This document shows positions 5,506-51,600 of a stretch of 64,000 nt of DNA, in pieces. The stretch comes from Pseudomonas parafulva (GTDB lineage Bacteria; Pseudomonadota; Gammaproteobacteria; Pseudomonadales; Pseudomonadaceae). The stretch lies in the NCBI RefSeq assembly GCF_002021815.1, contig NZ_CP019952.1, positions 217,001 to 281,000 on the forward strand. The letters run 5' to 3'. The stretch's first letter is position 1; every line of letters starts with the position of its first letter. A program made the position numbers and the translations under genes. The notes under the pieces are model-generated. The model saw only the letters and a program-made list of their open reading frames with translations. It searched no databases and was not told the DNA's origin.

Positions 5506-5943
5506 TCACTCACCGCGGATGTACTGCTCGAGCTGCAAGATCAGCCCTGCCTGCTCCGCAATGGTCTCCTTGACCAGGTCGCCAATCGACAACAGCCCCA
5601 ACAGCTCACCGTTGCTCACCACCGGTAGATGGCGCAAATGCCGGTTGGTCATCAGGTTCATGCAGTATTCAAGGTTGTGCTTCGGCTCCACGGTGACCAC
5701 CGGTGCGCTCATGATATCGCGCACCGGCGTGGCGGCCGACGAGCGTCCCTTGAGCACCAGCTTGCGCGCATAATCGCGTTCACTGACGATACCTACCACC
5801 TCGTTGCCTTCAACGACAGGCAATGCGCCGATGTTCATCTCGGCCAACAGTCTGAGGGCGTCGAGCACTGAGTCGTCCGGGCCGATGGTATACACGGTCT
5901 GGTGTTCGGACTTGCTCTTGAGGATTTGTTCGACGTTTTTCAT
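5506..5943 (-). CDS. CBS domain-containing protein
   Basis: 145 residues from the ATG at 5943, which has AGAGG 5 bases upstream; the longer frame to 5988 lacks such a site. It consists almost entirely of two CBS domains (about 10-65 and 78-132): typical GALPVVEGNEVVGIVSERDYAR and HLPVVSNGELLGLLSIGDLV segments, each ending in the xSxxD nucleotide-binding pattern. Stand-alone CBS pairs bind adenosine nucleotides and act as energy sensors. No partner domain is fused and no partner gene is adjacent, so the target is unknown. Confidence 0.88.
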   Translation of the reverse strand: MKNVEQILKSKSEHQTVYTIGPDDSVLDALRLLAEMNIGALPVVEGNEVVGIVSERDYARKLVLKGRSSAATPVRDIMSAPVVTVEPKHNLEYCMNLMTNRHLRHLPVVSNGELLGLLSIGDLVKETIAEQAGLILQLEQYIRGE

Positions 5944-6075
5944 GGCGGCCTCTGCGGGTGGAGGGAAACACTGGCGATGGTCATGCAAGCATTGACCACC
6001 CGACGTCGTCCGGCAATGCAGGAAACGGCATCGAGGTGATTGAAAAACGTCATGAGCATGCAGAGGGCGTTTGCC

Positions 6076-6531
6076 TCAACCCTCTCGGGTGATCAGTCGT
6101 CGGTGACAGTCCTCGGGGCTTAACTGCCGGCCTGCACGGGATCGAACGATGATCGTCTCGATGGGCTCGTCCGTCACGTTATCCAGCATGATCGAATGGC
6201 ACTCGCCTGAACCGTACAGGAAACGCTCTCCCCACTGGCGCATGCTGATGACAATGGGGAAGGCGGCCCGCCCCATCTCGGTCAGCACATACTCCTTGTA
6301 AGCGCTCCCATCCGAAGCAGGCCGTATCTCGAACACGCCCAATTCGACCATTGCCTTGAGCTTTACGGTGAGGATGTTCTTGGCGACACCCAGTCGCTTC
6401 TGAAAATCACTGAACCGCCGTACGTCGTCAAACGCTTCGCGGATGATCATCAATACCCATCGGTCCCCAATTGCTTCAAGGGTGCGCGCCACTGGGCATT
6501 CACTGCGCGCTAGCTGTTCCTGTTTGGCCAT
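6076..6531 (-). CDS. HxlR family transcriptional regulator
   Basis: 151 residues. A winged helix-turn-helix spans about 15-105 with the HxlR hallmarks: an N-terminal CPVARTLEAIGDRWVLMIIREA segment, then RRFSDFQKRLGVAKNILTVKL (recognition helix) and a wing ending YVLTEMGRA. Cys12 sits at the position used for thiol sensing in HypR/YodB-type relatives, so redox or electrophile sensing is possible but unproven. Its C-terminal 45 residues extend past the minimal domain. It diverges from the MFS exporter across a 139-base region with two inverted repeats and so most likely controls that gene, perhaps also the cluster beyond. Confidence 0.9.
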   Translation of the reverse strand: MAKQEQLARSECPVARTLEAIGDRWVLMIIREAFDDVRRFSDFQKRLGVAKNILTVKLKAMVELGVFEIRPASDGSAYKEYVLTEMGRAAFPIVISMRQWGERFLYGSGECHSIMLDNVTDEPIETIIVRSRAGRQLSPEDCHRRLITREG

Positions 6532-6602
6532 GTTTGTCCATGAGCAGATGTTGAAAAGCGCTAACCATATGAGAAAACGTTCATGGCCAGTAGTTGCATT
6601 TA

Positions 6603-6650
6603 AAAACCTGTTTTGTTAAAAATCGCTGCAAGTGGTTTTCTTTTAAAACC
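6603..6650. promoter_or_regulatory. Two candidate operator inverted repeats
   Basis: In the HxlR-MFS divergent intergenic region there are two perfect short inverted repeats with related half-sites: AAAAC-CT-GTTTT at 6603-6614 and GGTTTT-CTTTT-AAAACC at 6634-6650. Their centres are about 34 bases apart, roughly three helical turns, and the second lies just upstream of the MFS start. HxlR dimers bind such dyads next to the genes they control. Assignment as HxlR operators is inference from position and symmetry. Confidence 0.4.
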
Positions 6651-6670
6651 GATTCCAAGGATGGAAGTGC

Positions 6671-7915
6671 ATGCCGTACAGGCCAGACAGCCCGGTCAAG
6701 CGCGCGGCGACAGCCGAAGCATCTGCCAATGGCTACGACACACCGCGTAGTACCACACTCAGCTCCTCTCAGACCTTCCTCTTTGCCATTACCTGCGCAA
6801 TGGCCGTGGCGAATGTCTACTTCGCCCAGCCGCTGCTCGAGTCCATGGCCAGCAGCTTGGCGGTGCCTGCCAGCACCATCGGCATCGTCGTCACGGCCAC
6901 CCAGGCAGGTTATGCGGTCGGTTTGCTGTTCATCGTGCCGCTGGGCGACTTGGTCAACCGGAAAAAACTCATCCTTTGCCAAATGCTCCTCAGCGCCTTG
7001 GCCCTCTGTGCCGTAGGGCTGGCGCAGGCCTGGGCCGTGCTGCTGGGTGCGATGGTCCTGGTGGGATTGATGGCCGTGCTGGTGCAAGTGGTGGTGGCCT
7101 ACGCTGCGGCACTGGCAAGCCCCGAGCAACGTGGCCAGGCCGTGGGGACGGTGACCAGTGGCGTGGTCCTGGGGATTCTGCTTGCACGTTTCGTGTCTGG
7201 CGCAATGGCCGATCTGGCCGGGTGGCGCAGCGTGTATTTCGTGTCGGCCGTGCTGATGGCGGGGATGGCCTTGGTGTTGTGGCGCACGCTGCCCGCACCT
7301 CCACGGGCTTCGGTCAGCGGCGGCTACTTTGCCCTGCTGCGTTCGGTGCTGCAGCTGTTTCTAAGCGAACGTACCCTGCGCGTGCGTGGGGTCTTCGCGT
7401 TGCTCATCTTCGCAGCCTTCAGCGTGCTCTGGACTTCCATGGTCCTGCCGCTCAGTGAGCCAGACCTTGCGCTTTCGCATACCCAAATCGGGCTGTTTGG
7501 CCTTGCCGGCGTAGCAGGGGCCCTCGCCGCAGCGAGGGCCGGGCGACTGGCAGACCGTGGCCTGGGCAATCGCACCACAGGCATTGCGCTGGCCGTGTTG
7601 ACCCTGTCCTGGCTCCCGACGGCGTTTGTCCACAGCTCGCTGCTGGCAATGGTCCTGGGCGTGGTGATGCTCGACTTCGCCGTGCAGGCCGTGCACGTCA
7701 CCAACCAGAGCCTGATCTTTGCTGCACGGCCGGATGCGCAAAGCAGGCTCGTTGGCGCCTACATGTGCTTCTACTCGCTGGGCAGCGGGCTCGGTGCCAT
7801 CGCGGCGACCTACACCTACGCCCAGGCGGGTTGGGTCGCCGTGTGCCTGCTGGGCGCATCGATCAGTGCCGTCGCCTTGATCTACTGGCTGTGGTTGAAC
7901 TTCAACGACCGATAA
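6671..7915 (+). CDS. MFS exporter, DHA1-like
   Basis: 414 residues, twelve predicted membrane helices after a hydrophilic N-terminal tail of about 35 residues. Helix 1 reads AITCAMAVANVYFAQPLLE, typical of a drug/metabolite-proton antiporter subgroup of DHA1. The conserved loop 2-3 motif is present as PLGDLVNRKKLI. It is divergent from the HxlR regulator and lies 93 bases before the ferredoxin gene on the same strand. It could be a stand-alone HxlR-controlled efflux pump or the exporter of the downstream pathway. The substrate is not predictable. Confidence 0.87.
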   Translation: MPYRPDSPVKRAATAEASANGYDTPRSTTLSSSQTFLFAITCAMAVANVYFAQPLLESMASSLAVPASTIGIVVTATQAGYAVGLLFIVPLGDLVNRKKLILCQMLLSALALCAVGLAQAWAVLLGAMVLVGLMAVLVQVVVAYAAALASPEQRGQAVGTVTSGVVLGILLARFVSGAMADLAGWRSVYFVSAVLMAGMALVLWRTLPAPPRASVSGGYFALLRSVLQLFLSERTLRVRGVFALLIFAAFSVLWTSMVLPLSEPDLALSHTQIGLFGLAGVAGALAAARAGRLADRGLGNRTTGIALAVLTLSWLPTAFVHSSLLAMVLGVVMLDFAVQAVHVTNQSLIFAARPDAQSRLVGAYMCFYSLGSGLGAIAATYTYAQAGWVAVCLLGASISAVALIYWLWLNFNDR

Positions 7916-8008
7916 GTACTTGCGCTTCAACAGGTGTGCTCATTGTTTCGACACAGCCACCTGATGCCGTGCGCGCGACACCGCAACTTCAACTGACCCG
8001 AGGCACGT

Positions 8009-8305
8009 ATGGCGCTGCACAAACTGACCGTTTCCTCCCACGGCGTCGACTTTGAACTGCCTTCCAATTCACCCCTTACGGACATCGAATGGGAGGCCGG
8101 TGGCAAGAATGTCATCCCGCTGGGTTGCCGTGTCGGGGCCTGCGGGGCGTGCCTGATCAAAGTCAAGAAAGGGCTGGACGCGTTGAATCCACGCAACGAT
8201 GAGGAAACAGCATTCATAGAACTGTTGGGCTATAGCGGGGCGGACTACCGTCTGGCCTGCCAGTGCCTGATCAGAGGTGAATTGGCCATTGATGTCATTG
8301 GCTAG
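8009..8305 (+). CDS. [2Fe-2S] plant-type ferredoxin
   Basis: 98 residues. The cluster-binding cysteines are C40, C45 and C48 (CRVGACGAC, C-x4-C-x2-C) and a fourth at C84 or C86 (RLACQC), in a beta-grasp ferredoxin of the type found beside oxygenases. It has no reductase domain, so it must be reduced by an enzyme encoded elsewhere. It lies 69 bases before the di-iron oxidase gene on the same strand, which makes it the probable electron donor for that enzyme. Confidence 0.9.
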   Translation: MALHKLTVSSHGVDFELPSNSPLTDIEWEAGGKNVIPLGCRVGACGACLIKVKKGLDALNPRNDEETAFIELLGYSGADYRLACQCLIRGELAIDVIG

Positions 8306-8374
8306 GCAGTGCGTTGTTCACGTCGACTCATGATGAGTGGCGTCTTGTATCAGAACCCAAAAAGAGGCTCGAAT

Positions 8375-9127
8375 ATGCTGAACCGTGTAAAGAATGTGGG
8401 CTATGGCGATCGCACACCGTTCCTCAATGCTGCTGCATCGGTCAACCTGCGTGGGGAAATCGACAGCATCATCGATGAACAGGTCGAGCAGTGGTACAAG
8501 ACGGTGCCGCAAGCCGCGCACCTGGAAGGCAAGGATGTCAACAGCGCCTACTACAAGCGTCACCTGATCGAAACGGCGTGGCGTATCCGCCTGCTGCGCG
8601 TTGCCGAGGCCAAGGCATTGGTCGAGGTGGCGAAAGTCAGCCCGGAAGCTGCGCAGATCTGGGCCCACTACGAGCAGGAAGAAATGCTGCATGACGACCT
8701 GTTCATCCAGGATCTTCAGCGTGTAGGCGTCAGCCGCGAAGAATTCCTTGCCACTGAGCCCTACTTGTCCACCAAGCTGTTGGCAGGCTTCTTCTCCTAC
8801 CTGCTCGACCATGAAGGTCCCCTGGGCGTCATCGCCTACTCGTACCTGGTCGAGTACGTCAACGTCAAGCTTGAGCCGCGCAAGCTCGAAGCGCTCAAGG
8901 GCTCGGTCGGCGAATCCAAGATCGCAGGTCAGATTTCCCACTCCCACACCGACATCAACGATGACCACCCAGGCGAGGTATGGGCGGCGTTGCGCTTCTT
9001 GATCAAGGGTGAGCAGGACATCGCTGCGCTCAAACGCTACCTGGCCGAGCATCAGAAAGTGCTGGCCATGTACTTCAACGAGTTGTACCTGGACACGCTG
9101 GCCAGCCCGCAAGCCAAGGTAGCCTAA
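8375..9127 (+). CDS. Heme-oxygenase-like di-iron oxidase (HDO family)
   Basis: 250 residues from the ATG at 8375, which has AGAGG 7 bases upstream; the in-frame extension to 8309 has no such site. All-helical heme-oxygenase-like fold ('iron-containing redox enzyme' family). Candidate metal ligands follow the UndA/SznF-type pattern: E103-x2-H106 (EEMLH), E160 (SYLVE), then H189/H191, D194 and H198 (HSHTDINDDH). Family members use O2 and a transient di-iron centre for N-oxygenation, C-C cleavage or desaturation of small molecules. The adjacent ferredoxin fits as reductant and the following ATP-grasp genes suggest an amino-acid-derived substrate. The reaction is unknown. Confidence 0.83.
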   Translation: MLNRVKNVGYGDRTPFLNAAASVNLRGEIDSIIDEQVEQWYKTVPQAAHLEGKDVNSAYYKRHLIETAWRIRLLRVAEAKALVEVAKVSPEAAQIWAHYEQEEMLHDDLFIQDLQRVGVSREEFLATEPYLSTKLLAGFFSYLLDHEGPLGVIAYSYLVEYVNVKLEPRKLEALKGSVGESKIAGQISHSHTDINDDHPGEVWAALRFLIKGEQDIAALKRYLAEHQKVLAMYFNELYLDTLASPQAKVA

Positions 9128-9130
9128 GCC

Positions 9131-10483
9131 ATGGTGCAGGCAATGAAGACGACGCGACCTGGTGTGCTGATCCTGAGCCATTGCGGCTTTTCCTTTCTGG
9201 AAGACTTGAAGTTAGAGCTGCATCGTCGTCAGCTTCGCTGCTTCGTGCTTTCTTCATTGCCGCTTCCTGAACATGTACCCGCTCGTTTGCAGCAAATCGA
9301 GTCCTGGGCAGACCGGCTCTATGTCGGCGACGCTCACCAATTGCGCAGCGACGAGGTTACCCAAACCCTCCAGCGGCTGCATGAAGCAGGCGAACAGGTC
9401 ACCTGTTGCATCAGCGTGTGGGAGGGGTATCGGCACCTGATGGCGCAGGCCAACCTGTCGCTTGGCACCTACGACATTGCCCCTGAGCAAGCGCTTGCCC
9501 TGCGCAACAAGCTCGCGGTGCGTAACCAACTGGCGGCGGCCGGGCTTTCACACGTCCAGGCGCATGCACTGTCGGCACCGGTCCTGCAGGCCTTGCAGCT
9601 GGACGGCCGCCACTACTTCATCAAGCCGATCCACGGCATTGCTTCCTATGCCGCCTTCCCAATGCATCCGGACACCCGTTGGGACACGTTGGAAGCCCTG
9701 AGAGAGGCTTCGGCAAGCGACACCGTGTATGCCTCTGCCTTCAACGAAGGGCTTGAGTTCATGGCCGAGGATTACATACCCGGTAAAGAATTCAGCTTCG
9801 AGACCCTATTGCTCGATGGTCAGGTCCACGTCGTGGCCATCCATGAAAAATACGAAGTCACAGAGACCGCCGAAACGGTATTGGAAGACAGCTGCACCAC
9901 ACCGCCGGCCAGCCTCGATCAGGCACAGATTGCAGCCGGCCTGGCATGGCTGAATCAAGTGCTTGGCTGTCTGGCGTTGAAATGGGGCTGCTACCATATC
10001 GAAGCCAGGTTCACGGACGAGCATTGGGACCTGATCGAAGTCAATCCACGGGTTGGCGGCAGTCTGATTTCTCATAGCGTAGAAGCGGTCGCTGACGGGC
10101 ACAGCATGCTGTCGCTGTGGCTGGACCTGCTATTCGCAAGCCAGGACGATGGGCCTCTGCGCGAGGCCTTCGCACATCGTCTGGACAGGCTCGGCTGGCA
10201 CGCTGATGGCACCACCGCACAGACGACGGCCACGTTCTTTCGCGTCTATTTCGCCAAACCCGGCACCTTGCGTTGCGTCGAGCTGGCTACGGCCGCACCG
10301 GCGCCTAGCGTCACACACATCCTGCTCAAGGCAGGCGATGTGATTCCTGCCCATGCCCGTGAAGTGTTCCTCGGTCAGTTGCTGTGGACATTCCCGCGCA
10401 CAGAGCACCCCGCTGAACTCAAGCGCTTGTCTCGTATCAGCGCAGATGCGCTCGATATCCAGTACGAAACCGAAGGCTTCTGA
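9131..10483 (+). CDS. ATP-grasp ligase 1 of the cluster
   Basis: 450 residues; begins three bases after the stop of the oxidase gene. An N-terminal pre-grasp domain (about 1-115) is followed by the ATP-grasp fold: ALRNKLAVRNQLAAAG (helix opening the domain), YFIKPIHGIAS (ATP-binding Lys), EDYIPGKEFSFE, and the metal site DLIEVNPRVGGSLI with E303 and N305. About 130 C-terminal residues form a further domain. The layout is that of BacD/carnosine-synthase-like L-amino-acid ligases, which activate a carboxylate as acyl phosphate and join it to an amine. Substrates cannot be read from the sequence. An alternative start is the ATG at 9143. Confidence 0.85.
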   Translation: MVQAMKTTRPGVLILSHCGFSFLEDLKLELHRRQLRCFVLSSLPLPEHVPARLQQIESWADRLYVGDAHQLRSDEVTQTLQRLHEAGEQVTCCISVWEGYRHLMAQANLSLGTYDIAPEQALALRNKLAVRNQLAAAGLSHVQAHALSAPVLQALQLDGRHYFIKPIHGIASYAAFPMHPDTRWDTLEALREASASDTVYASAFNEGLEFMAEDYIPGKEFSFETLLLDGQVHVVAIHEKYEVTETAETVLEDSCTTPPASLDQAQIAAGLAWLNQVLGCLALKWGCYHIEARFTDEHWDLIEVNPRVGGSLISHSVEAVADGHSMLSLWLDLLFASQDDGPLREAFAHRLDRLGWHADGTTAQTTATFFRVYFAKPGTLRCVELATAAPAPSVTHILLKAGDVIPAHAREVFLGQLLWTFPRTEHPAELKRLSRISADALDIQYETEGF

Positions 10484-10511
10484 CGCCCGCCACGCACCGG
10501 AGACAACTGAC

Positions 10512-11843
10512 ATGTCCTTGCAAAGACCCGTTTTGCTGGTTGTGGATTACAACTTGAGCCGTATTGGCGACGTTCAACACATGCGCAACCATGCCCGTGA
10601 GCGCTGGAATGCCGAAACCTGGTTGGTTCGCAGTGCTCCCCAGGCGCACGATCTGCGCATCAGCGATCGGCTGATCGACGCAGACCCGTTGGCACCGGAC
10701 TTCATCCAGCGCGTGCTTGAGCAGCTAGGCGACGATGCCACGCGTGTGAGTGCTGGGATCGTGTTTTCCGACAATGCCGTAGCCAGTGGCGCTGCGCTGC
10801 TCGAACGCCTGGGTTTGCCTGTTGACGACGCCCGCCTTGCCTTGGGTGCGTTTGATAAGCTGGCTTATCGGATCAGCGAGCAGCGCATCGGGCCGATGCT
10901 CACCCAACTCGGCGTGATGGTGCCGGATTTCGAGCGCATCAGGTGCCTTGAAGACGTCCAGAACTTCGCCCAGCGTCAGACACGCGGCTTCGTCATCAAG
11001 CCCACGACCGAGGGCAATAACCGCGGCGTGGTCCTGGTCGCCCCGGGCGCAGACTGCGACCAGGCGTTTGCCGAGGTGGAGCCGTACCTGGCGAACGGCG
11101 TGCTGGCCGAAGCCTTGATACCCTTTGACCGTGAATTCTCGTACGACGGATTGGGCGAGTTGTGGTTCATCACCGAGAAAGTCAGCGCCACCGGGCGCTA
11201 CCCTGTGGAAGTGGCGCAGATCCTGCCGGCCCGGCTCGACCATCAGGAGCGCATGGCCATCCGTGTGGTGGGCGAGCAGGTCAACCGATTGGTTGGCCAG
11301 CGCATCGGGCCGTTCCACAATGAGATCAAGCTCAGCGAAAAAGACTGCAACACGGCGGTGGTCGAGCCCAATCGGCGTCCTGCAGGCATGAAGATCTGGA
11401 CGCTGGCTCAGGCCGTCCACGGGCTTGACTTGTATGCAGCCTGGATCGACTCGGTATTTTCGGCAGCCATACCCAAGGAGCTGCCAGAACCGACCTGTAG
11501 CGCAGCCACCCTCATGTTCGGCGTGCCCCAGGACATGACCGTCGAGGTGGCCCAACTGGGCGATGTTCATGCCCTGGTGGTGGAAACGATCGCCTGCGCA
11601 GCCCAGCAGCTGGGCATCGCGCAGGACGCCGTCGTCTTGCTCGAATGCGCTTGGGTGACCCGTGCGCGCCGTCTCGTCCATGCAACGCCCCGCGACAATA
11701 GCGACTTCGTGGCGCAGGCCTGCGTCGCGCTGCACGATACCCAGGCCGATATCCGTGATCTGGTGAGTGCGCTGCGCGAACGATGGCTGCAAGTCATGGC
11801 GCGCAGCCTGGCTGCCGAACCCCTGCTCAAGGCCGCTTGCTGA
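10512..11843 (+). CDS. ATP-grasp ligase 2 of the cluster
   Basis: 443 residues from the ATG at 10512, with GGAG 9 bases upstream; the frame extends upstream through the previous gene and is not used. It has a pre-grasp domain, the helix LGAFDKLAYRISEQ, the ATP-binding Lys in GFVIKPTTEGNN, and a metal-site motif NEIKLSEKDCNTAVVEPNRR with E285 and N287. It is only distantly similar to the two neighbouring ATP-grasp proteins, so the three are likely successive, non-redundant ligases rather than recent duplicates. Its metal-site neighbourhood (EPNRRPAG) differs from the usual RxGG, which may reflect a distinct substrate class. Confidence 0.82.
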   Translation: MSLQRPVLLVVDYNLSRIGDVQHMRNHARERWNAETWLVRSAPQAHDLRISDRLIDADPLAPDFIQRVLEQLGDDATRVSAGIVFSDNAVASGAALLERLGLPVDDARLALGAFDKLAYRISEQRIGPMLTQLGVMVPDFERIRCLEDVQNFAQRQTRGFVIKPTTEGNNRGVVLVAPGADCDQAFAEVEPYLANGVLAEALIPFDREFSYDGLGELWFITEKVSATGRYPVEVAQILPARLDHQERMAIRVVGEQVNRLVGQRIGPFHNEIKLSEKDCNTAVVEPNRRPAGMKIWTLAQAVHGLDLYAAWIDSVFSAAIPKELPEPTCSAATLMFGVPQDMTVEVAQLGDVHALVVETIACAAQQLGIAQDAVVLLECAWVTRARRLVHATPRDNSDFVAQACVALHDTQADIRDLVSALRERWLQVMARSLAAEPLLKAAC

Positions 11844-11874
11844 GCGACGCCCTCCACGCTTCGAGAACAATAAT

Positions 11875-13101
11875 ATGAAGATTCTGATCCTCCACCGTGT
11901 GCCTTACCCCCGAATCGAATACCACCGTGGCATTGATCATGTGCTGCACGAAGTCACCTATTTCGGTAAGCAAGCTGCAATCGACACGCTGCCTGCCGAT
12001 TTGCAGTGCGAGCGGGTGGTACGAGCAGGTACCGCCAGTGCCAGCGAGGAAGCATTGGCATGGTTGTCTGATAGCCCCCAGCACTTTGATCGCATCATTT
12101 CGATGTCCGAATACGAGTTGCTCGATGCTGCGCGCTTGAGAGAAGCACTGGGCGTTGAAGGGGCGTCAGTGCAGACCGTGACCCTGGCGCGCAACAAGCT
12201 ACTGATGAAGGAGGCGGTGCAGGCTCATGGCTTGCGCATACCGCGGTTCATGTCGCTGGCCTGTTATCTGGAGGCGCAGGGCCAGGTGCCTTGGGCGGGC
12301 AAAACGGTCTTCAAACCCCATAGCGGTGCTTCGAGCGCGGACGTCAGCGTACATGTGTCATCTCAGGCCCACCCCGAAATCCGGCGCAAGATCCATGAAC
12401 AGTCGTTGCACATCGATGATTTTCAGGTCGAGGAGTACATTGCAGGCCCGATTCGCCATTTCGACGGCTTGGTGCTCGACGGTCGAATCGTCACGATGCA
12501 GGCCAGTGAATATGTAGGCACCTGCCTGGCCTACATGGAGCAGGGCGCGCCGCTGGGCTCCTGGCATGTGGACAGCTGTGCATCCACACGGGAGTGGGTG
12601 GGGCAGGCGCTGAACGCGGTGCAGATCACCCAGGGCGCTTTTCACCTGGAAGCCATCATGGACGCCAACGGGCCGGTGTTCCTCGAAGTGGGTAATCGGG
12701 TCGGCGGGGCTGACGTGGTGGCGACCTATGAGATGGCCACAGGGATCCATTTGCCTTCGCTGGAACTGCGTATCTATGTCGAGGGCGAACTAGACTTTTC
12801 GACACTGAGCGGCCGGCAGGCGGACTTGGGCTACGGATGGTTCGTGTTCCCTGGGCACACTCACCCGCAGCGCACGTTCCATGGGCTCGAGGGCGCAGGT
12901 GAACTGCGCAGCAGCCCTTGTATCGTGCAGTGGAACGAACTCGAACCGGGTGCACCATTGCCTGGGCACGTGACCTACTCGGCATTCGAAGCGCCGCTGG
13001 CGGGCATCGTCAAGACTGCCGACCCCGAGCGTACCCGCGACTGGATAGGCGATTTGTTCTCCCGGGTATCACTGGCCCGGCACCTGACCTCCGTTGCTTA
13101 A
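11875..13101 (+). CDS. ATP-grasp ligase 3 of the cluster
   Basis: 408 residues from the ATG at 11875; the ribosome binding site is weak (GAGAA). The order is pre-grasp domain (1-100), VTLARNKLLMKEAVQAHG, KTVFKPHSGASSADV (ATP-binding Lys and flexible loop), EEYIAGPIRHFDGL and metal site HLEAIMDANGPVFLEVGNRVGG with E271 and N274 (E-x2-N spacing). It is closer to carnosine-synthase/BL00235-type ATP-grasp enzymes than to ligase 2. It lies 31 bases after ligase 2 and 24 bases before the EamA transporter, in one transcriptional unit by spacing. Confidence 0.83.
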   Translation: MKILILHRVPYPRIEYHRGIDHVLHEVTYFGKQAAIDTLPADLQCERVVRAGTASASEEALAWLSDSPQHFDRIISMSEYELLDAARLREALGVEGASVQTVTLARNKLLMKEAVQAHGLRIPRFMSLACYLEAQGQVPWAGKTVFKPHSGASSADVSVHVSSQAHPEIRRKIHEQSLHIDDFQVEEYIAGPIRHFDGLVLDGRIVTMQASEYVGTCLAYMEQGAPLGSWHVDSCASTREWVGQALNAVQITQGAFHLEAIMDANGPVFLEVGNRVGGADVVATYEMATGIHLPSLELRIYVEGELDFSTLSGRQADLGYGWFVFPGHTHPQRTFHGLEGAGELRSSPCIVQWNELEPGAPLPGHVTYSAFEAPLAGIVKTADPERTRDWIGDLFSRVSLARHLTSVA

Positions 13102-13125
13102 CTTCTTCTTCAAGGCAGCCTGCCA

Positions 13126-14022
13126 ATGAAACCACAGCATGTAGTGCTGGCCGTTCTGATCACGGCCATCTGGGGCATCAATTTCTCTGTCATCAAACTG
13201 GGGCTGGCCACTGTCGATCCCCTGATCCTCGCCGGGATTCGTTTCAGCCTGTGCGCGCTGCCGGCGATTTTCTTCATCCGCAAACCTGATGTGGCCTGGC
13301 GCTACATCATTGGTTATGGCCTGGTGTTCGGCATCGGCTTATGGGGTGTGGTCAACCTCGGGATCAAGGCTGGGCTGTCTGCCGGCATTGCTTCGCTGGT
13401 GCTGCAGTTCAGTGCATTCTTCACCATCCTGCTGGGCGGGGTGGTCTTCAAGGAAGCACTGACGCGCTTTCAGGTGCTGGGCATGCTGGTCGCCTTTGCG
13501 GGGCTGCTGTGCATCATTACGATCAGCGACGGCTCGGTGACGTTGCCTGGTGTACTGCTGGTACTCCTTGGCGCTGGCGCATGGAGTGTCGCCAACGTCA
13601 TCAACAAGAAGGCCAGGACCAAGGACGTGTTCGCGTTCCTGGTGTGGTCCAGCGCTTTTGCACCGATCCCGTTGTTCGTGCTCGACTACGCGGTCAACGG
13701 CAGTGCCGGCTACACCGCGCTGGTCCATCAGGTGGACAGCACGGCCATTCTGTCGATTCTCTTCCAGGTCTACCCCAACACCTTGTTTGCCTACTGGATC
13801 TGGAATTCGCTGCTCAAGACGTACCCGGTATCAACCGTCGCACCGCTTTCGCTGCTGGTGCCGATTTTCGGCATGCTCGGCTCGGTACTGGTGTTCAACG
13901 AGAGCGTGCCCACCAGCAAGGTGCTGGCCGTTATCCTGATCGTGCTGGGCCTGGCTGTGGGCCTGTATGGCCAGCGCCTCTTCAATGCTTTGTCCGCGCG
14001 CACCGCGCGAACTTCACTGTGA
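13126..14022 (+). CDS. EamA/DMT family transporter
   Basis: 298 residues with ten predicted membrane helices in two EamA repeats (about 5-140 and 147-285). The start of each repeat is recognisable: VLAVLITAIWGINFSVIKLGL and VLLVLLGAGAWSVANVINKK. The family exports amino acids and small metabolites. Because it sits between the ligase genes and the Tat-exported PLP enzyme, I infer that it moves a pathway intermediate or product from cytoplasm to periplasm. The similarity is to the RhaT/YdcZ/RarD-like superfamily in general; no specific substrate is implied. Confidence 0.87.
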   Translation: MKPQHVVLAVLITAIWGINFSVIKLGLATVDPLILAGIRFSLCALPAIFFIRKPDVAWRYIIGYGLVFGIGLWGVVNLGIKAGLSAGIASLVLQFSAFFTILLGGVVFKEALTRFQVLGMLVAFAGLLCIITISDGSVTLPGVLLVLLGAGAWSVANVINKKARTKDVFAFLVWSSAFAPIPLFVLDYAVNGSAGYTALVHQVDSTAILSILFQVYPNTLFAYWIWNSLLKTYPVSTVAPLSLLVPIFGMLGSVLVFNESVPTSKVLAVILIVLGLAVGLYGQRLFNALSARTARTSL

Positions 14023-14039
14023 ATCGATAGGAAGTCGAA

Positions 14040-15383
14040 ATGAGTTTGGGAAGACGTGGATTCATGGGGGGCGCTGTGGGCGCCACCCTGGTTGGCGGCA
14101 GCATGATCGCCAGCTTGTCCAACGCAGGCGCCGCTCCGGTGCCTGAACCGGAAGCCCCGGCATTCGATCCCGCCGACTGGGCATCGGTACGGTCGCAGTT
14201 TCAGCTGTCGCCCCGGTATGTGCATATCTCCAACTTCTTCCTGGCATCCAACCCCAAGCCGGTGCGCGATGCCATGGCGCGGCACCGGGAGGCCTTCGAC
14301 CAGAACCCCTATACCTACCTTGAAGACCACATGTTCGCCAAACCCGAAGACATGGTCTGGCGCAAGGTCTGCGAAACGGCAGCCGCCTATACGGGTGGGC
14401 GCGCAGAGGACATTGCCCTGACCACCAGCACGACCCAGGGCCTGGCAATGATCTACAACGGCATCAAGCTCAATCCCGATCAGGAAATCCTCACCACCCA
14501 CCATGAGTGGTACACCCACGACGAAGCGATGCGCCTGGCCGTGGTCAAATGGGGTGGCAGCATCAGGCGCATCGATCTCTACCAAGGGCCGCAGGACGTC
14601 AGCGTCGATGCCATCGTGGCGCGTATCGAAGCCGCCATTCGCCCTTCGACCCGCATTCTGGCAATGACCTGGGTTCACTCCGGCACCGGCGTGCGATTGC
14701 CGGTCAAGGAGATCGGCGACCTGGTGGTCCGGCTCAACAACGGCCGTGACGAGGCGCAGAGAATCCTGTACGTAATTGACGGGGTGCATGGTTTCGGCTG
14801 CTCCGAGGCGCAGGTCGCCAGCCTGGGATGCGATTTCTTCAGTGCCGGTACGCACAAGTGGATACTCGGCCCCCACGGCACCGGTCTGGTGTGGGGACGC
14901 GAGGGGCAATGGCGCCACGTCATGCCGACCATCCCCACCATCATGGCGGCCGAGCCTGCCAATGCCTGGCGCCAGGAACGTGCGCCGCAGGGTGATACGC
15001 AAGCGGCCTGGGTAAGCCCCGGGGGGTTCCAGGCGTTCGAGCATCAGTGGGCGATGATCGAGGCGTTCCGATTCATCGAGCAAATTGGCCGCACGCGCAT
15101 TGCCGAGCGTGTCGCCGAACTCAATGGCCAGCTCAAGGAAGGGCTGGCCAAACTGCCCAACGTTTCATTGCTCACGCCCCAGAGCGCGCAGTTTTCAGCG
15201 GGTATCGTGTGCTGCGACGTCAAAGGTCAGGCGCCCAAGGACGTGGTGGCGAAGTTGAAAGCGCAGAACATCATTGCCAGCGCAACGCCCTACCGTCACA
15301 CCTCGGTTCGCTTCTCTGCCGGGATCACCAACACCCCCCAGGACATTGAGAAGACCCTGCAGGTGATGCACAGCCTGACGTGA
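14040..15383 (+). CDS. Tat-exported PLP-dependent enzyme, class V aminotransferase fold, PvdN-like
   Basis: 447 residues, AGGAAG 5 bases before the ATG. The N-terminus is a twin-arginine signal: GRRGFMGG (R5, R6), a hydrophobic Gly/Ala stretch, then a Pro-rich linker after residue 32. The enzyme body has the class V fold: TTHHEWYTHDE, VIDGVHGFG (PLP-ring Asp) and SAGTHKWILGPHGTG, where K273 is the expected Schiff-base lysine. Exported class V enzymes of this kind are best known as PvdN and PtaA, which remodel the glutamate side chain of pyoverdine in the periplasm. There is no pyoverdine gene here, so it probably acts on the product of the neighbouring ligases. The isopenicillin-N epimerase family is the alternative label. 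Confidence 0.83.
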   Translation: MSLGRRGFMGGAVGATLVGGSMIASLSNAGAAPVPEPEAPAFDPADWASVRSQFQLSPRYVHISNFFLASNPKPVRDAMARHREAFDQNPYTYLEDHMFAKPEDMVWRKVCETAAAYTGGRAEDIALTTSTTQGLAMIYNGIKLNPDQEILTTHHEWYTHDEAMRLAVVKWGGSIRRIDLYQGPQDVSVDAIVARIEAAIRPSTRILAMTWVHSGTGVRLPVKEIGDLVVRLNNGRDEAQRILYVIDGVHGFGCSEAQVASLGCDFFSAGTHKWILGPHGTGLVWGREGQWRHVMPTIPTIMAAEPANAWRQERAPQGDTQAAWVSPGGFQAFEHQWAMIEAFRFIEQIGRTRIAERVAELNGQLKEGLAKLPNVSLLTPQSAQFSAGIVCCDVKGQAPKDVVAKLKAQNIIASATPYRHTSVRFSAGITNTPQDIEKTLQVMHSLT

Positions 15384-15411
15384 TTCAGGGCTGTGCAGGG
15401 TTCACCGGACG

Positions 15412-15440
15412 CGCTACCCGGCCCTCTAGGCCGGGTAGCG
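15412..15440. terminator. Strong hairpin between convergent genes, probable bidirectional terminator
   Basis: A perfect 12-bp stem (CGCTACCCGGCC, loop CTCTA, GGCCGGGTAGCG) lies between the stop codons of the PLP enzyme and the dipeptidase. There is no T-run on either side, so whether it terminates by itself is uncertain. Confidence 0.5.
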
Positions 15441-15462
15441 ATGCCAAAGGCAGAGGCGGGGC

Positions 15463-17193
15463 TCAGAGCTTCGGCATCTGCCCGATCCGCGCCACCATTT
15501 CGCTGACCACCTGCAGGTCCAGCATGAACTGGTCCACGGTCTTGAACTCGTTGTCGTTATGCCCGGTGTACTTCACGCCGGGCATTGCCAGACCAAACTG
15601 CACGCCGTTGGGCAGGTCATGCACCGAGGTGGCCCCGGCGGACGTACCGAAGGTGTGCTCCATGCCCAGGTTTTCGCTGGCCACGGCCAGCAGTGCCTTG
15701 ACCCACTCGCCTTCAGGGTTGCGGTACATCGGCTCATCCAGGCTGTAGTCATAGGCTGGAGTGATATGGCTTTGCTGCGACCATTTGCCGAGCTTGTCGG
15801 CGATTTCATCCTTGATCGGTGCGACCGCCTTGCCCTTGGGGATGCGCAGGTTGATCGCCAGCTTCAAGCCTTTGTCATCCACACCGACGAAGGTTGGCGA
15901 GGCGGTAAGCGGCCCCATGAACGCATCGTCATAGGCGATGCCCAGCTTCTTGCCCAGGTAGTCCAGGCCCCAGTTGTCCGCCGCATAGCGGGCAGCATCG
16001 GTGAACTGGTTCTGCTTCAATGGCACCGTTTTGCCCACGCCATTGATGAAGTCCAGCATGCGCGCGACAGGGTTCACGCCCGATTCGGGTTCTGAGGAAT
16101 GAGCTGACATACCGGTTACGGTGAGCACCACCTGCTTGCCGTCGGGTTTGGCAGCGATGCTGAAGTCGCCACCGTTTTGCTTCACGTACTCGGCACCGGC
16201 CGTGTTCAGTCGCTGCGCCAGTGCGCTGGCGTCGTCGGTGAGCAAGGTCGCTACCGAGGTGGACGGAATCTGATTGGTAGCAAGCCCACCGGTGAGGTTG
16301 ACGATTTCGGCCCCCTGGCCGCTGGCCGCACGCTTGGCAAAATTCGCCATTATGGTGCCGTAGCCTTTTTCCGCGATGACTACCGGGTAGCCGCCATCCA
16401 GGGCGAGGTTGTAGTCAGGCGTGGGGTTGCGCTCGAAGTAGTACGGGATGGCATCGCCGCTGGTTTCTTCGGTGGTGTCGATCAGCAGTTTGAATTGCCG
16501 CGCCAGGGGCAGGTTTTCATCCTTGGCGACCTTCAGGGCATACAGCGCTACGACGATGCCATTCTTGTCGTCCTCGGTACCGCGGCCGTACATGCGATCA
16601 CCGACCAGGGTCACCTTGAACGGGTCCAGGCGCGTGCCGTCGGCAAGCTTCCAGTTTTCCGGTGTGACAGGAACCACGTCGGCATGGGCATGGATACCGA
16701 CCACTTCCTTGCCGCTTCCCAGGGAGATTTCGTAGACACGGTTGTCGACGTTGCGAAAAGCCAGGCCAAAGCCGTCGGCCAGTGCCTTGATCTTGTCGGC
16801 GATCTTCAGGAACTCGGGGTTTTCATGCTGAGGTGTGCCCTCGACGGTGACCGTGGGAATGGCCACCAATTCGCGCAGCGTCTGGGTGGCGGCCTTGCCG
16901 TACTTGATGCGGGTGTAGAGCCCGAGCAGGCGATTGATCTCGTTCTGCTGCTCGGCGTCCAACGGCTTGCCGGCCAGGTAAGTGTCCAGGGTGGCGCCCA
17001 GGCCATCGGCCTGGTTCAGGTCGCTGCCTTTGAGCTTGCCGAGAAACTGCTTGAAGTCATGCGGATCGCTGCCGTCGAACGCCTTGACGATCGCCGCAGA
17101 CTGCTGCTGGGTGAGGTTGGCCTGGGCAGGCAATGTGAACAAGCCGATGCTGGCCGCCAGCAGGGAAACAGAGGTGAGCTTTTTCAGGTGCAT
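15463..17193 (-). CDS. Secreted M20 family metallo-dipeptidase
   Basis: 576 residues from the ATG at 17193. That codon has GAAGGA 12 bases upstream and begins a textbook signal peptide (MHLKKLTSVS...LPAQA, cleavage after residue 25). The in-frame ATG at 17205 directly abuts the GAAGGA and is less likely; frames further upstream run through a terminator. M20 zinc ligands are visible: H170 and D172 (AHADVVPV), D208/D209 (GTEDDKNG) and E242/E243 (TTEETSG). Length and motifs fit the Sapep/PepV/carboxypeptidase G2-like dipeptidases with an inserted lid domain. Location is probably periplasmic. It borders the ATP-grasp cluster but is convergent with it, so a functional link is not shown. Confidence 0.87.
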   Translation of the reverse strand: MHLKKLTSVSLLAASIGLFTLPAQANLTQQQSAAIVKAFDGSDPHDFKQFLGKLKGSDLNQADGLGATLDTYLAGKPLDAEQQNEINRLLGLYTRIKYGKAATQTLRELVAIPTVTVEGTPQHENPEFLKIADKIKALADGFGLAFRNVDNRVYEISLGSGKEVVGIHAHADVVPVTPENWKLADGTRLDPFKVTLVGDRMYGRGTEDDKNGIVVALYALKVAKDENLPLARQFKLLIDTTEETSGDAIPYYFERNPTPDYNLALDGGYPVVIAEKGYGTIMANFAKRAASGQGAEIVNLTGGLATNQIPSTSVATLLTDDASALAQRLNTAGAEYVKQNGGDFSIAAKPDGKQVVLTVTGMSAHSSEPESGVNPVARMLDFINGVGKTVPLKQNQFTDAARYAADNWGLDYLGKKLGIAYDDAFMGPLTASPTFVGVDDKGLKLAINLRIPKGKAVAPIKDEIADKLGKWSQQSHITPAYDYSLDEPMYRNPEGEWVKALLAVASENLGMEHTFGTSAGATSVHDLPNGVQFGLAMPGVKYTGHNDNEFKTVDQFMLDLQVVSEMVARIGQMPKL

Positions 17194-17310
17194 GAGTGTA
17201 CGCATTCCTTCGCCAGTCATTGATGAGGCCCCGTCGTGCGGGAAGGCCCTCACGCTAACACCAATGACCTGTGGTACGGCAGTACCAGGCGTGTGACATG
17301 GCGCACAAAC

Positions 17311-17343
17311 GAAAAAGCCCCAGGCGTTGGCCTGGGGCTTTTC
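17311..17343 (-). terminator. Rho-independent terminator of tRNA-Arg
   Basis: AAGCCCCAGGC, loop, GCCTGGGGCTT followed by TTTTC when read on the minus strand. It lies immediately downstream of the tRNA 3' end and is nearly symmetric, with A-tract and T-tract on the two sides. Confidence 0.8.
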
Positions 17344-17348
17344 ATGTA

Positions 17349-17425
17349 TGGCGCACTCGGCGGGATTCGAACCCACGACCCCTGCCTTCGGAGGGCAGTA
17401 CTCTATCCAGCTGAGCTACGAGTGC
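17349..17425 (-). tRNA. tRNA-Arg (anticodon CCG)
   Basis: 77 bases including encoded CCA. The acceptor arms GCACTCG and CGAGTGC pair perfectly, followed by discriminator G and CCA. The D-arm (GCTCAGCTGGATAGAGT), the anticodon loop CTCCGAA (anticodon CCG) and the T-arm GTGGGTTCGAATCCCGC are all present. It reads CGG arginine codons. I see no repeat of its 3' end elsewhere in the window and no integrase, so there is no sign that it is in use as an attachment site. Confidence 0.95.
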
Positions 17426-48694: not shown

Positions 48695-51600
48695 TCAGTC
48701 AGCCGGGCGCAGGCTGCCGAACAGTTTGTTGGCCTGAGCCTCGGTCATGGCCGCGCGCCATGCCCCTTCCCCCAGGTCCCGTTCGCTGGCCAGTTTCAGG
48801 TGGCCTGCTTCAAGTCGAGTGAAGCCGCTTGAGGGTTTGTGCCGGAAGTGGAAGTGCGCATACCACAGCGGCTGCCCGCTGGCCCGATCCACTATGCGGT
48901 ATTCCTCAAGATACTCCACCGGGTTGCCTTTGCGGTCCCGTTTCGGGTTCAGCGTGCGCGACCAGCCAAGCTCTACCTCCTGCTGCTCCACCAGGTATTC
49001 CAGGTAAGCCACCGTCGGCTTACTGCTTGCTTTGCTCTGGGCTATGCGCAGTTGCCGGCCCAGGGCATGCATCTCTGCTGCAGCGGTGTCCAGTTGCTGG
49101 ATCAGCGCCAGGTGGCTGGCGTTTAACGAAGTACCCGCCTTGCGCCGGATGCTCTCGCCCAGAAAACGCAGCTGCTGGGCGTGGCCTTCGGCGATGTCTT
49201 CCAGGTCTACCGGGAGAGTTTGTGGTTTCCGATACTGGTGCAGCTTGGCCCGTTGCTGATCGATGGCGGCCAGACGGGCACTGGCGGTTTCAAGCAGCGA
49301 GGAGAGGGGGGGCGTCGGCATCTGGGGCTCGTTTGCTACCTGTTGCCATTTGCCGTTTTCGCTTTTGGCGTAAACGGTGTGCGGCTGTTCGGAATTGGGC
49401 TGGTTGATACGCATGCGCGCCTGGCCGCGCTCGACGAACTCGTTACCGATCAACGGTCCCTCCACCGTCTCGAACAAGCGTGGGCGGCTCGCGCCCTGCG
49501 GGGGGTGGTCGGTAGAAGGGCGGGCTGAGCTGGCCTTGGCGAGGTTGGCATCGATTTCGTCGATCAACTCCCGCATGAGTTGACGAAACGACAAGGTTTC
49601 TGCTGGTGCCAGCAAGTCCGTGAAGTTGTCTTCCCATGCCGTCAGGTGGTTCAGGTAGCGCACATAGCGGCTTCTGGCGTGGCTGAGGAACGTGCGTTCC
49701 TGGGCCCGGCTGAGGCGCGCTTGCGGCAGCTGAACCTGGCTGTACAGCGTGCTGCGCAGAGCAACCCCCTGTTCATGGAAGTGGGTCATGAAGGCCCCCA
49801 TATGCGGGTGTTCTACCGCGCTTGCCTCGAAAAGGGTGACCGACAGAATCGACGCCCTGACCACGCGGATGTTGCTCAGGTCCAGCACCAGGCCGGTCTG
49901 CTGGGCACGGGCCATGTATGTGCTCAGGGTATTGCCTTGCAAGGCCCTGCGCCGTACCTGATGGCTGGTTGCCAGGCGCTCGGCCTCCATCAGCGTCAGC
50001 ACCATCTCTCTATTTGCCGCCAACGTATTCTGGGTCAGGCGCTTGGCCACCGACGTGGGTACGGTAGATTCAGCTAATGCCTGAACGGCGCTGTACGCCA
50101 GCTTGATCTGGTCGGTGGCGAAGGTAAAGCGTGCTGAAACCAGGTGCATGTCCAGCACCGCCATTTCAACAATGTTTTCCTCGCACAGGGTCTTGAAGCG
50201 TACGTAATCTGCCCGAGCCAGCGTGGCACGTTGCTCCCGCAGGCGCGCCACGGCCTGCTCATTGAACGCGATGTTGCCCTGAACTTCTTCAGCCAGTTGC
50301 GTGCGTGCATTGACGTAGGCAGCTCGTTGCCCGTCAGTGGGCTGCGTACCTTCGGCCACAGCCTCCACTGCCGCGCGGTAGGCCGCCTGCTTCTGCGCCA
50401 AACGGGACCGGCAGCGTACGAGTTCGTCGTTGATGTCGTGTGCCAATTCCAGCCCTGTAAGGCGCCTGGGCTGGGCGCGCATTGCTCTGCGCCAATAGGC
50501 AACACCGTGATTGAGCAGTGTGGTGAGTGCACCGCCGCCTCCGCGCAGGGCGCTGTCCACCAGCAGGCCACTGAGGCGGCCAGGCGTTTCCCAAACACCG
50601 TGCTCGCTGAGGCGTACAGGTTGACGATAGCTGCGCATACCGTGGGGTTTCAGCCTCCAGGTCAGGTAAGCGGCGTCCCATTCAACCGCGTACCAGGCGG
50701 CATTGCGCGTGATGTATGTTTGCCGCGTTGCCGTATGCTCGAACACGCCAGCGCCCTGGGGAAGGCTGGAGCGCTTCATCGGGCCGATGGGCAGGTCCGT
50801 TTCATAGCCGCCGAAGGCACTGTGGGACGGTTGGGGTGTTCCGCTCACCTGCCGCAGGGGTTGCAGGCGCTGGCGTTGCTGGGCCAATAGCCGCGCTGTG
50901 ATAGCAGGCTTGCCAATAGCTGCACCCGTTGGGGCCATGGTCAGTACAGCATCGCTGAGCGACTGCAATAGGCTGACGAGGTGCATCAGGCCTTCTTCCA
51001 GGTTGCGTTGTTCGAAAGCAGTGACCGCAGCAGTAGCCGCCTGCCAGCCATCGAAAAGTGCAAGGCCGGTACCCACGCCTGGCAATACCCCCAGTACCAT
51101 TCGCAGCCCCATGAAGAAGTAATGGTCAAATACCTGTGGCGCAGCGAGGGCCACATCGGCCTGGCTGCGAGAGGTGTTACGATGGATGCGAATGAGCGCC
51201 CCCATGCCTTGACGAGCTTCATAGGTAGGCAAGGATTCGGGACGCGCAATGCCTATGCCGATAAACCCGTGAAATCCTGACTTCAGTGCGGCGTCGATGT
51301 ATCGCTCATGCTCATCCGGATCACCGCTCAAGGTTTGCTCAGCCAGGTAGCGGGCCATGGCTTTGTCCAAGGCCATGCTTTGCAGCGCTTGGCATGCCGC
51401 ATCGCTGTCTGAGTACTGGCTGACGACCTTGCCATTGGGCGCATCCGGCATATAGAGCAACACAGGGCTTGTCTGGCCCTGCACCAGCGCGATGCCGGAC
51501 AGAGCGACGTTGTCGCTCGAACCATCTGCTGCTACTCCTGGCTTCAACTCCAGCGAGTGGTAGGCAAGGGTCCTGGCTGCGCCTGCAGCCACCTGTTCGT

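Follow-up and report, generated by a model that had tools for sequence, protein, structure and literature searches.

A probably mobile nine-gene HDO/ATP-grasp cluster of Pseudomonas parafulva, with relatives in several phyla, that may follow the logic of mangotoxin biosynthesis

The locus

The window analyzed here is a 64,000-nt stretch of the Pseudomonas parafulva genome (GCF_002021815.1, NZ_CP019952.1, positions 217,001-281,000). A unit of nine genes lies at 6076-15383 of the window and consists of a divergently transcribed HxlR regulator, an MFS exporter and seven further plus-strand genes. Family assignments of the cluster proteins were made with Pfam and NCBIfam, and the features are as follows.

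6076..6531, minus strand: HxlR-family regulator, divergent from the operon and inside the insert (Pfam HxlR, E 7.8e-17; family in 27 of 55 loci)
6593..6607, plus strand: candidate operator box GTTGCATTTAAAAAC in the divergent promoter region (GTTGNANNTNANAAC kept, by eye, in 13 aligned Pseudomonas loci)
6634..6650, plus strand: palindrome GGTTTTCTTTTAAAACC, candidate HxlR operator (GGTTTNNTTTNNAAACC in all 13 Pseudomonas loci, that of the window among them)
6671..7915, plus strand: MFS exporter that opens the operon (Pfam MFS_1, E 6.6e-41; family in 29 of 55 loci)
8009..8305, plus strand: [2Fe-2S] ferredoxin, predicted to supply the HDO with electrons (Fer2, E 5.3e-8)
8375..9127, plus strand: HDO (profile match to MboA, 9ypi, E 2.2e-20; HDO fold in the model)
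9131..10483, plus strand: ATP-grasp ligase G1 (ATP-grasp_4, E 2.8e-15)
10512..11843, plus strand: ATP-grasp ligase G2 (ATP-grasp, 26.1 bits against a cut-off of 27)
11875..13101, plus strand: ATP-grasp ligase G3, MboD-like (L-amino acid ligase structures 3vot and 4wd3)
13126..14022, plus strand: EamA exporter; its predicted cargo is the substrate of the PvdN-like enzyme (Pfam EamA, E 1e-27)
14040..15383, plus strand: PvdN-like PLP enzyme, predicted to be Tat-exported (PvdN structure 5i90, E 3e-89)

The start of the HDO gene is taken as the ATG at 8375; the mechanically defined ORF begins at the GTG at 8309. The initial annotation described a compact set of seven genes on one strand, and all seven ORFs are indeed on the plus strand, with gaps of 69, 3, 28, 31, 24 and 17 bases. 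As borders of the unit, however, 8009..15383 proved too narrow, since the HxlR and MFS genes belong to it as well. The M20 dipeptidase gene that follows (15463-17376) was considered as a member and dropped because it lies outside the insert; it is widespread in Pseudomonas (19 of the 57 genomes searched). As originally proposed, there is no NRPS, PKS or precursor peptide among the cluster genes, and the Pfam and NCBIfam families that these genes match do not include YcaO/TfuA or a precursor peptide.

Regulatory region and insertion site

Both candidate operators lie between the divergent HxlR and MFS genes. The form GGTTTNNTTTNNAAACC of the palindrome matches the window once, against 0.00 matches expected; it is found in none of the 12 actinobacterial HxlR/MFS gaps and is also missing in locus L084. 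A stricter form of the upstream box, GTTGNANNTNAAAAC, likewise occurs a single time in the window, where 0.01 occurrences are expected; some of the 13 Pseudomonas loci depart from it. Scans for promoters (0 against 2.6 expected) and terminators (5 against 7.1) did not rise above shuffled sequence.

The insertion was assessed against two cluster-free relatives. In G025 (L118) the corresponding site is empty, with 128 bases in place of the 9.4 kb in the window, whereas G007 (L120) matches on the dipeptidase side only and is hence uninformative about the empty site. The same 9.3-kb block, with unmatched flanks, was found in all seven Pseudomonas loci compared (L049 apart). The two border stretches searched contain no direct repeats, and the GC content of the cluster is about that of its surroundings. 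A search of plasmid DNA returned 24 records, none with 80% query coverage, and added loci L101 and L102.

Distribution and linkage of the core

All genes of the five-gene core, ferredoxin-HDO-G1-G2-G3, are present in 47 of the 55 loci (the window is one of them), a recurrence that greatly exceeds chance, and 46 of these keep the same order; the loci span Pseudomonas, Burkholderiaceae (including Burkholderia), actinobacteria (including Streptomyces) and cyanobacteria. Five of the eight incomplete loci are truncated by contig ends, and in L067 (S. tricolor) G1 is matched over 202 residues only, with G2 and G3 missing. In all complete loci with the standard order (46 of 47) the ferredoxin gene precedes that of the HDO on the same strand. 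The pairwise distances of the five core proteins correlate, with r from 0.78 to 0.96 and none of 999 permutations reaching such values, and orthologues (at least 69%) of the HDO, G1, G2 and G3 are shared by the same four of 194 relatives. In 12 actinobacterial loci an MFS gene whose product is 44-47% identical is divergent from an HxlR gene.

Joint conservation across lineages had been set beforehand as the test of a single pathway, and the set stays together well beyond Pseudomonas. What is conserved is the core, however, and not all seven genes: EamA and the PvdN-like enzyme constitute a lineage-specific module. On balance we regard the unit as a mobile, HxlR-linked specialized-metabolite cluster that works by mangotoxin logic, an assignment that we consider reasonably probable.

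The HDO and its relation to MboA

The HDO scores 20.6 bits with Pfam Haem_oxygenas_2, under the cut-off of 28.9. A profile built from 15 sequences and run against 177,635 distinct PDB sequences matched, at E ≤ 1, only MboA (the E-value listed above) and 3dde, an uncharacterized protein of the HDO fold. MboA, the acetylenase of mangotoxin biosynthesis, is thus the closest solved relative, with 27-29% identity; HDOs so distant can do other chemistry. The structure model (pLDDT 90.3) matches the folds of CADD, HrmI, UndA and BesC; MboA is absent among the structure-library matches listed (entries to 8 April 2026), which has no bearing on fold distance. Six predicted diiron ligands, E103, H106, E160, H189, D193 and H198, align with E86, H89, E143, H172, D176 and H181 of MboA in all 28 rows of an alignment that includes two rows of MboA itself. 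Sequence and model together indicate a heme-oxygenase fold with a predicted 3-His/3-carboxylate dimetal site. Asp90 and Tyr82 of MboA are likewise retained in every one of the 28 rows; in MboA, Tyr82 is the proposed catalytic base of desaturation and Asp90 an extra ligand (PMC13185094).

The side-chain pocket differs. The residues with which MboA recognizes arginine, N57, D61 and D139, are replaced by L, E and S in 24 of 24 orthologues (L74, E78 and S156 in the window) and by S, Q and N in two divergent HDOs, L097 and L137. These guanidinium-binding residues differ from those of MboA, and the substrate side chain is probably one other than arginine. The HDO had been presented as an enzyme with its own ferredoxin, and the two genes do lie side by side; for its second oxidation MboA needs a dedicated redox partner (PMC13185094). 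An oxidative role is retained from the initial annotation, although the mbo operon points to desaturation of a side chain instead of an open-ended rearrangement: the HDO probably removes hydrogen from a peptide side chain to leave an alkene or alkyne.

The ATP-grasp ligases

Pfam and structure matches agree with the earlier reading of the three ATP-grasp proteins as several likely peptide-ligase steps. G1 reaches 56.7 bits with ATP-grasp_4 (cut-off 27), and its nearest structure is the L-amino acid ligase BL00235. Its scores with MboC (45.8 bits, BLASTP) and with a generic L-amino acid ligase (47.6 bits, phmmer) show no clear preference for MboC, and the position of MboC in the tree is unsure. 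G3, which has no Pfam hit, is 29% identical to MboD (E 8e-28) and forms one clade with MboD and the G3 of sister clusters (support 100/97). Residues E303, N305 and R307 of G1 are invariant in 12 relatives, as are E271 and R275 of G3 in 12 rows; we take these to be catalytic ATP-grasp residues. G2, BacD-like at E 1e-4, forms its own clade with two G2-like relatives, and the sister clusters appear to hold no clear equivalent of it; its active-region residues were read by eye only. All three proteins probably form peptide bonds between amino acids.

EamA and the PvdN-like enzyme

The EamA protein scores 202 bits with the O-acetylserine/cysteine exporter model, against a cut-off of 472. The PvdN-like enzyme is a class-V aminotransferase, nearest to PvdN in both families and structures; the THKW lysine motif aligned with PvdN is kept and the N-terminus, MSLGRRGFMGG, has a twin-arginine start (GRRGF, judged by eye), while its score with the NCBIfam PvdN equivalog, 409.8 bits, is below the cut-off of 650. 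The 24 PvdN-like rows form one clade, on long branches, apart from four of six PvdN outgroup homologues.

Searches for the two genes covered 15 of the 17 actinobacterial loci and L066, leaving out L067 and L076. Of the 16 genomes or records searched, 6 have an EamA orthologue (64-68%), and among the 15 actinobacterial ones, all of which carry the cluster, 12 have a PvdN-like gene (55-59%). Among these 12, four have both a Tat start (judged by eye) and EamA and eight have neither, a link that maps to one branch only. L066 and L069 have EamA and no PvdN-like gene, and most burkholderial loci lack both. In the window, EamA and the PvdN-like enzyme, with its predicted Tat export, resemble a module for trimming outside the cytoplasm, where the initial annotation had placed the last step; such a last step is not universal, however, because the PvdN-like enzyme of one actinobacterial clade lacks the Tat start and EamA is missing there.

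Comparison with known systems

The mbo operon (MboA-F) of Pseudomonas syringae, which makes the plant toxin mangotoxin, is biochemically resolved (PMC13185094). The cluster shares with it a homologous HDO that keeps every metal ligand and Tyr82 of MboA, an MboD-like ligase, a redox partner adjoining the HDO, peptide assembly by ATP-grasp enzymes and presence in only some strains (PMC13185094, PMC3355146). The mbo operon differs in having two ligases and not three, and a fused ferredoxin-reductase, MboB, where the cluster encodes a separate ferredoxin of 98 aa (E 1.3 to MboB); its arginine deiminase MboE has no significant match among the cluster proteins, nor does MboF match EamA significantly (best E 0.026). 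The cluster, in turn, has replaced guanidinium-binding residues in its HDO, adds the MFS, HxlR and PvdN-like proteins and is spread over several phyla.

Sister clusters L143-L146, uncharacterized and of the Streptomyces family, have an HDO 43-46% identical beside G1-like and G3-like ligases, an association seen in all four loci widened of the seven places found. They differ in having no ferredoxin and no clear G2 (E ≤ 1e-6, 19 kb read), and in the two loci with listed ORFs an oxygenase-like gene, PhyH-like by eye, follows the HDO. In the thiovarsolin cluster, according to PMC6511847, the HDO VarO is needed for a double bond in the arginine side chain of the peptide, and an ATP-grasp gene (VarL) and an MFS exporter are nearby; that product, however, is a RiPP made with YcaO/TfuA, and the ATP-grasp gene is dispensable. 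PvdN itself is a periplasmic PLP enzyme of pyoverdine tailoring with a twin-arginine start (PMC6206403). The enzyme described here resembles it in cofactor, twin-arginine start, PLP-lysine motif and strong match to PvdN structures, yet sits in another cluster.

The cluster had been called unrecognized. Among the open-access papers listed in literature searches, those on mangotoxin and thiovarsolin and one HDO review (PMC13108848) were relevant, and no earlier description of the nine-gene cluster was found in the text consulted; the label nevertheless needs qualifying, given that the mbo operon is a homologous analogue. At least 25 HDO/ATP-grasp cluster types were reported in 2026, in supplementary figure S2C of PMC13185094, and the cluster may be among them. 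Its pathway and product seem to be uncharacterized.

A proposed pathway and its alternatives

What was observed directly is the gene content and its linkage, the homologies and retained catalytic residues, and where the block is present or absent; a pathway proposed from these has to infer the reactions, peptide length, cap, transport steps, product and activity. Neither NRPS nor ribosome would be needed: G1, G3 and the extra ligase G2 would join amino acids into a short peptide, probably three or four units long. The ferredoxin of the cluster would re-reduce the HDO (with a reductase supplied by the host in Pseudomonas and by an encoded flavoprotein in actinobacteria), and the HDO would take two or four hydrogens off a side chain, leaving an alkene or alkyne; the C-terminal residue is the likeliest site. 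In Pseudomonas, and in some members of Streptomyces, the peptide would leave through EamA, and the PvdN-like enzyme, itself exported by Tat, would trim it at an end with free alpha-amino and alpha-carboxyl groups, such as a gamma-glutamyl cap offers. Export of the product would fall to the MFS protein. We favor this overall reading, of a ligase-built peptide, HDO desaturation of a non-arginine side chain, export by EamA and trimming by the PvdN-like enzyme, with some confidence. It can be extended, speculatively and with little likelihood, to a second cross-phylum family of peptide acetylenases, in which the HDO and its dedicated, free-standing ferredoxin introduce an alkyne at the C-terminus, in a side chain other than arginine, of a tetrapeptide that is built by ATP-grasp ligases, bears a gamma-glutamyl cap, is exported by EamA and is oxidatively decarboxylated at the cap by the PvdN-like enzyme outside the membrane. 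This two-compartment arrangement would have been re-internalized in one actinobacterial branch, and the product would be a pro-antimetabolite of soil and plant bacteria of several phyla.

Within the same peptide logic the HDO might instead carry out another known HDO reaction, such as N-oxygenation, C-C scission or the formation of an azetidine or nitrile, or it might modify a free amino acid that is ligated afterwards. All of these are known from enzymes that share its fold (PMC13185094), HrmI, UndA and BesC are among the structure matches, and the pocket residues are unlike those of MboA; we consider this possible, though rather less than probable. The profile search speaks for desaturation, since UndA, BesC, HrmI and CADD, all with solved structures, are absent at E ≤ 1 and only MboA and 3dde match. 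So do the retention of the proposed base Tyr82 and the extra ligand Asp90 in every aligned row and a dedicated redox partner, which fits the second-oxidation need of MboA.

That the exported enzyme is nearest to PvdN in families and structures might also suggest a role in the tailoring or extension of pyoverdine, or in making some other metallophore, with EamA and the PvdN paralogue acting on periplasmic siderophore material. A second PvdN homologue, 42% identical and presumably the pyoverdine enzyme, is encoded elsewhere in the genome, however, and to this are added the NCBIfam score below the equivalog cut-off and the presence of PvdN-like genes in most of the actinobacteria with the cluster, where pyoverdine is not expected. 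Pyoverdine tailoring was dropped as an explanation, and the broader siderophore reading is quite improbable. The widespread dipeptidase gene at the border could be seen as a sign of a chance neighborhood of housekeeping genes, or the whole as a degraded remnant, a view to which we give almost no credence: the site is empty in G025, the block recurs between unmatched flanks in Pseudomonas, the ORFs are open, key residues of the HDO, G1 and G3 are invariant, and linkage across phyla speaks strongly against it.

If desaturation is indeed the reaction, this natural set of HDOs, alike in metal site and different in side-chain pocket, would offer a direct test of what directs such enzymes and a wider toolkit for making amino acids that carry an alkene or alkyne. 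With its small size, the core lends itself to reconstitution in vitro. The occurrence of a related five-gene core across bacterial groups suggests that the mangotoxin idea, a peptide built by ligases and desaturated on a side chain by a diiron enzyme, is not a curiosity of P. syringae.

Gene content and extent of the cluster

The seven plus-strand ORFs of the initial annotation were confirmed, coordinates included, with gaps of 69, 3, 28, 31, 24 and 17 bases between them. In a Pfam/NCBIfam scan of the cluster proteins, the ferredoxin (Fd) matched the Fer2 family, the HDO gave a weak match to Haem_oxygenas_2, two of the three ligases matched an ATP-grasp family (one of them just under the cut-off), the transporter matched EamA, and the PLP enzyme was assigned to the class-V aminotransferases, with PvdN as its nearest family. 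The third ligase (G3; the others are G1 and G2) had no Pfam match, and its structure matches are solved L-amino acid ligases.

All seven genes of the proposed unit are present, but its borders had been drawn too narrowly. The cluster-free relative G025 (locus L118) aligns to 5506-6057 and 15463-17269 of the window, the two pieces being separated by 128 bases, so that about 9.4 kb (6058-15462) is present in the window and absent in G025. This insert holds nine genes, the two additional ones coding for an HxlR regulator and for an MFS exporter. In L120, from a second cluster-free relative, only one flank aligns. Seven further Pseudomonas loci (L050, L051, L052, L053, L056, L057 and L060) aligned over the block alone, at 72-79% DNA identity and with nothing beyond it at E ≤ 1e-10; the block therefore lies in different surroundings there. 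The flanks align too in L049 (P. fulva NBRC 16637), at 94.2% over 19,140 columns, which places the source of the window close to that strain. No repeat was found at the block borders, and the scan of the ten proteins encoded between 6076 and 17376 showed no integrase. Two other features of the window are:

17349-17425, tRNA-Arg, near the block
48695-54178, minus strand, ORF of 1827 aa, no Pfam match at E ≤ 0.001, overlapped on the other strand by five ORFs of at least 150 aa

The gap between the HxlR and MFS genes contains the palindrome GGTTTNNTTTNNAAACC in 13 of 13 Pseudomonas loci, including the window, which has a single copy at 6634-6650 (0.00 expected). Twelve actinobacterial loci and L084 also have the divergent HxlR/MFS pair, and the palindrome was found in none of their gaps.

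A conserved five-gene core

Non-Pseudomonas relatives of the HDO, with Streptomyces, Burkholderia, Trinickia and Pendulispora among the names, are 74-80% identical to it in the 120 of 329 matches listed. A search with two short conserved peptide patterns, and therefore tuned to this HDO family, covered a single genome for each species and yielded 52 loci. Two plasmid loci and the window bring the set to 55, in which Fd, HDO, G1, G2 and G3 are all present in 47, bearing out beyond Pseudomonas the earlier expectation that the set stays together across lineages. The complete loci, which include near copies (window/L049 and L071/L101), comprise 12 from Pseudomonas, 14 actinobacterial, 3 cyanobacterial, one from a gammaproteobacterial MAG and a remaining 17, of which, judged by record title, 16 are from Burkholderiaceae and one from Chromobacterium vaccinii. 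The order Fd-HDO-G1-G2-G3 on one strand holds in 46 of the 47, L086 being rearranged. In the incomplete loci L054, L070, L076, L082 and L094 the contig ends 56-1554 bases from the HDO gene; in L094, Fd is also missing in the 5 kb upstream. In L097 and L098 the HDO is 45% identical and its sole partner is a G1-like ligase gene on the opposite strand. In S. tricolor (L067:5206-15955) the G1 match covers 202 residues only, and G2 and G3 are missing from the 10 kb that come after it; candidate causes are rearrangement, decay and misassembly.

Among 194 relatives, only G000, G037, G056 and G102 carry close orthologues of HDO (at least 90% identity), G1 (at least 72%), G2 (at least 69%) and G3 (at least 72%). 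Weaker matches, at most 36% identical, occur in other genomes: HDO in 23 (E ≤ 1e-3), G1 in 7, G2 in 6 and G3 in 18 (E ≤ 1e-10). Two genomes with such matches, G018 and G093, carry operons (L103 and L104) identified by similarity as mbo, the mangotoxin operon of Pseudomonas syringae. At E ≤ 1e-30, G1 was found in 2 of 398 Pseudomonadota genomes, its own and G534, where it lies in two pieces at a contig end. Pairwise distances of the five core proteins across the 47 loci correlate with r of 0.78 to 0.96 (0 of 999 permutations as high), and host relatedness contributes to this correlation. G2-like ATP-grasp proteins (31-33%) occur in the cluster-free Pseudomonas genomes G021, G044, G088, G038, G106 and G002; two of the six, L105 and L106, branch with G2 in the tree.

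Relationship to mangotoxin biosynthesis

The cluster is a variant of the HDO and ATP-grasp peptide pathways, a kind already known, with at least 25 cluster types (PMC13185094). Against 177,635 distinct PDB sequences, the HDO profile had two matches at E ≤ 1, MboA (2.2e-20) and the uncharacterised protein 3dde (3.6e-8), and the AlphaFold2 model of the window HDO (pLDDT 90.3) has the HDO fold. In mangotoxin, the ATP-grasp ligases MboC and MboD assemble a Leu-Ala-Arg tripeptide, in whose C-terminal arginine MboA forms the alkyne, its second oxidation requiring the redox partner MboB; Tyr82 is the proposed base, and N57, D61 and D139 hold the guanidinium group (PMC13185094). All 28 aligned rows, two of them being MboA itself, keep the six metal ligands of MboA, Asp90 and Tyr82. 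N57, D61 and D139 give way to L, E and S in all 24 orthologues, and to S, Q and N in the two divergent HDOs of the alignment. The oxidation machinery is thus conserved and the side-chain pocket changed; desaturation is the best-supported candidate for the HDO chemistry.

G3 shares 29% identity with MboD (E 8e-28). In the ligase tree, G3, MboD and the G3-like ligases of a sister group form one clade (100/97) and G1 and its sister counterparts another (100/99), with G2 apart; the position of MboC is unsure, as long branches meet. This sister group consists of clusters around divergent HDOs of 43-46% identity, found at 7 places in 297 Streptomyces-family genomes, with a G1-like ligase within 1.5 kb in 6 of the 7. 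The widened loci L143-L146 (from G854, G870, G883 and G782), which include the seventh place, each have a G1-like and a G3-like ligase. At E ≤ 1e-6 they showed neither a ferredoxin, although a short one could be missed, nor a clear G2; in L145, a G2 match of 23% lies over the G3-like gene. The simplest history is an ancestor with an HDO and two ligases, ferredoxin and the third ligase having been gained in the window-type family; loss in the sister group may instead explain the difference. L143-L146 apparently represent another uncharacterised HDO/two-ligase pathway. In the two of these loci with ORFs listed, what by eye resembles a PhyH-type dioxygenase follows the HDO, as does an LLM-type monooxygenase in one of them.

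Predicted export and tailoring

Twelve Pseudomonas loci carry the PvdN-like gene; every one of them has EamA, and in 11, including the window, the enzyme has a GRRxF start. In L050 (15650-17020) the start reads GRC, not GRR, a change that may weaken Tat export, unless it is a sequence error. The PvdN-like gene was found in 12 of the 15 actinobacterial genomes or records searched (out of 17 loci). Four (L061, L068, L070 and L095) combine a twin-arginine start with an EamA orthologue (67-68%); eight (L062, L063, L072, L073, L075, L085, L092 and L102) have neither, their best genome-wide EamA match being 34-40% or none (plasmid record only for L102). These eight proteins form one clade (99/99) and hence record one evolutionary event, not eight. 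L066 and L069, with EamA present and the PvdN-like gene absent, speak against a strict link between the two. PvdN decarboxylates a gamma-linked glutamate with its nitrogen kept (PMC6206403), which by analogy suggests that the window pathway may use a similar gamma-linked glutamate cap.

Other lineages surround the core differently. A pyridine-nucleotide flavoprotein gene lies upstream in 16 of 17 actinobacterial loci and a DUF885 gene is present in 13 of 17 (family labels from one representative each), and in nine loci, burkholderial by record title (e.g. L101:5557-9302, L071 and L089), the core is flanked by genes for a PLP decarboxylase and for another HDO-family protein distinct from the first. 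Such variation in tailoring genes around an unchanging core is in keeping with a family of specialised-metabolite clusters.
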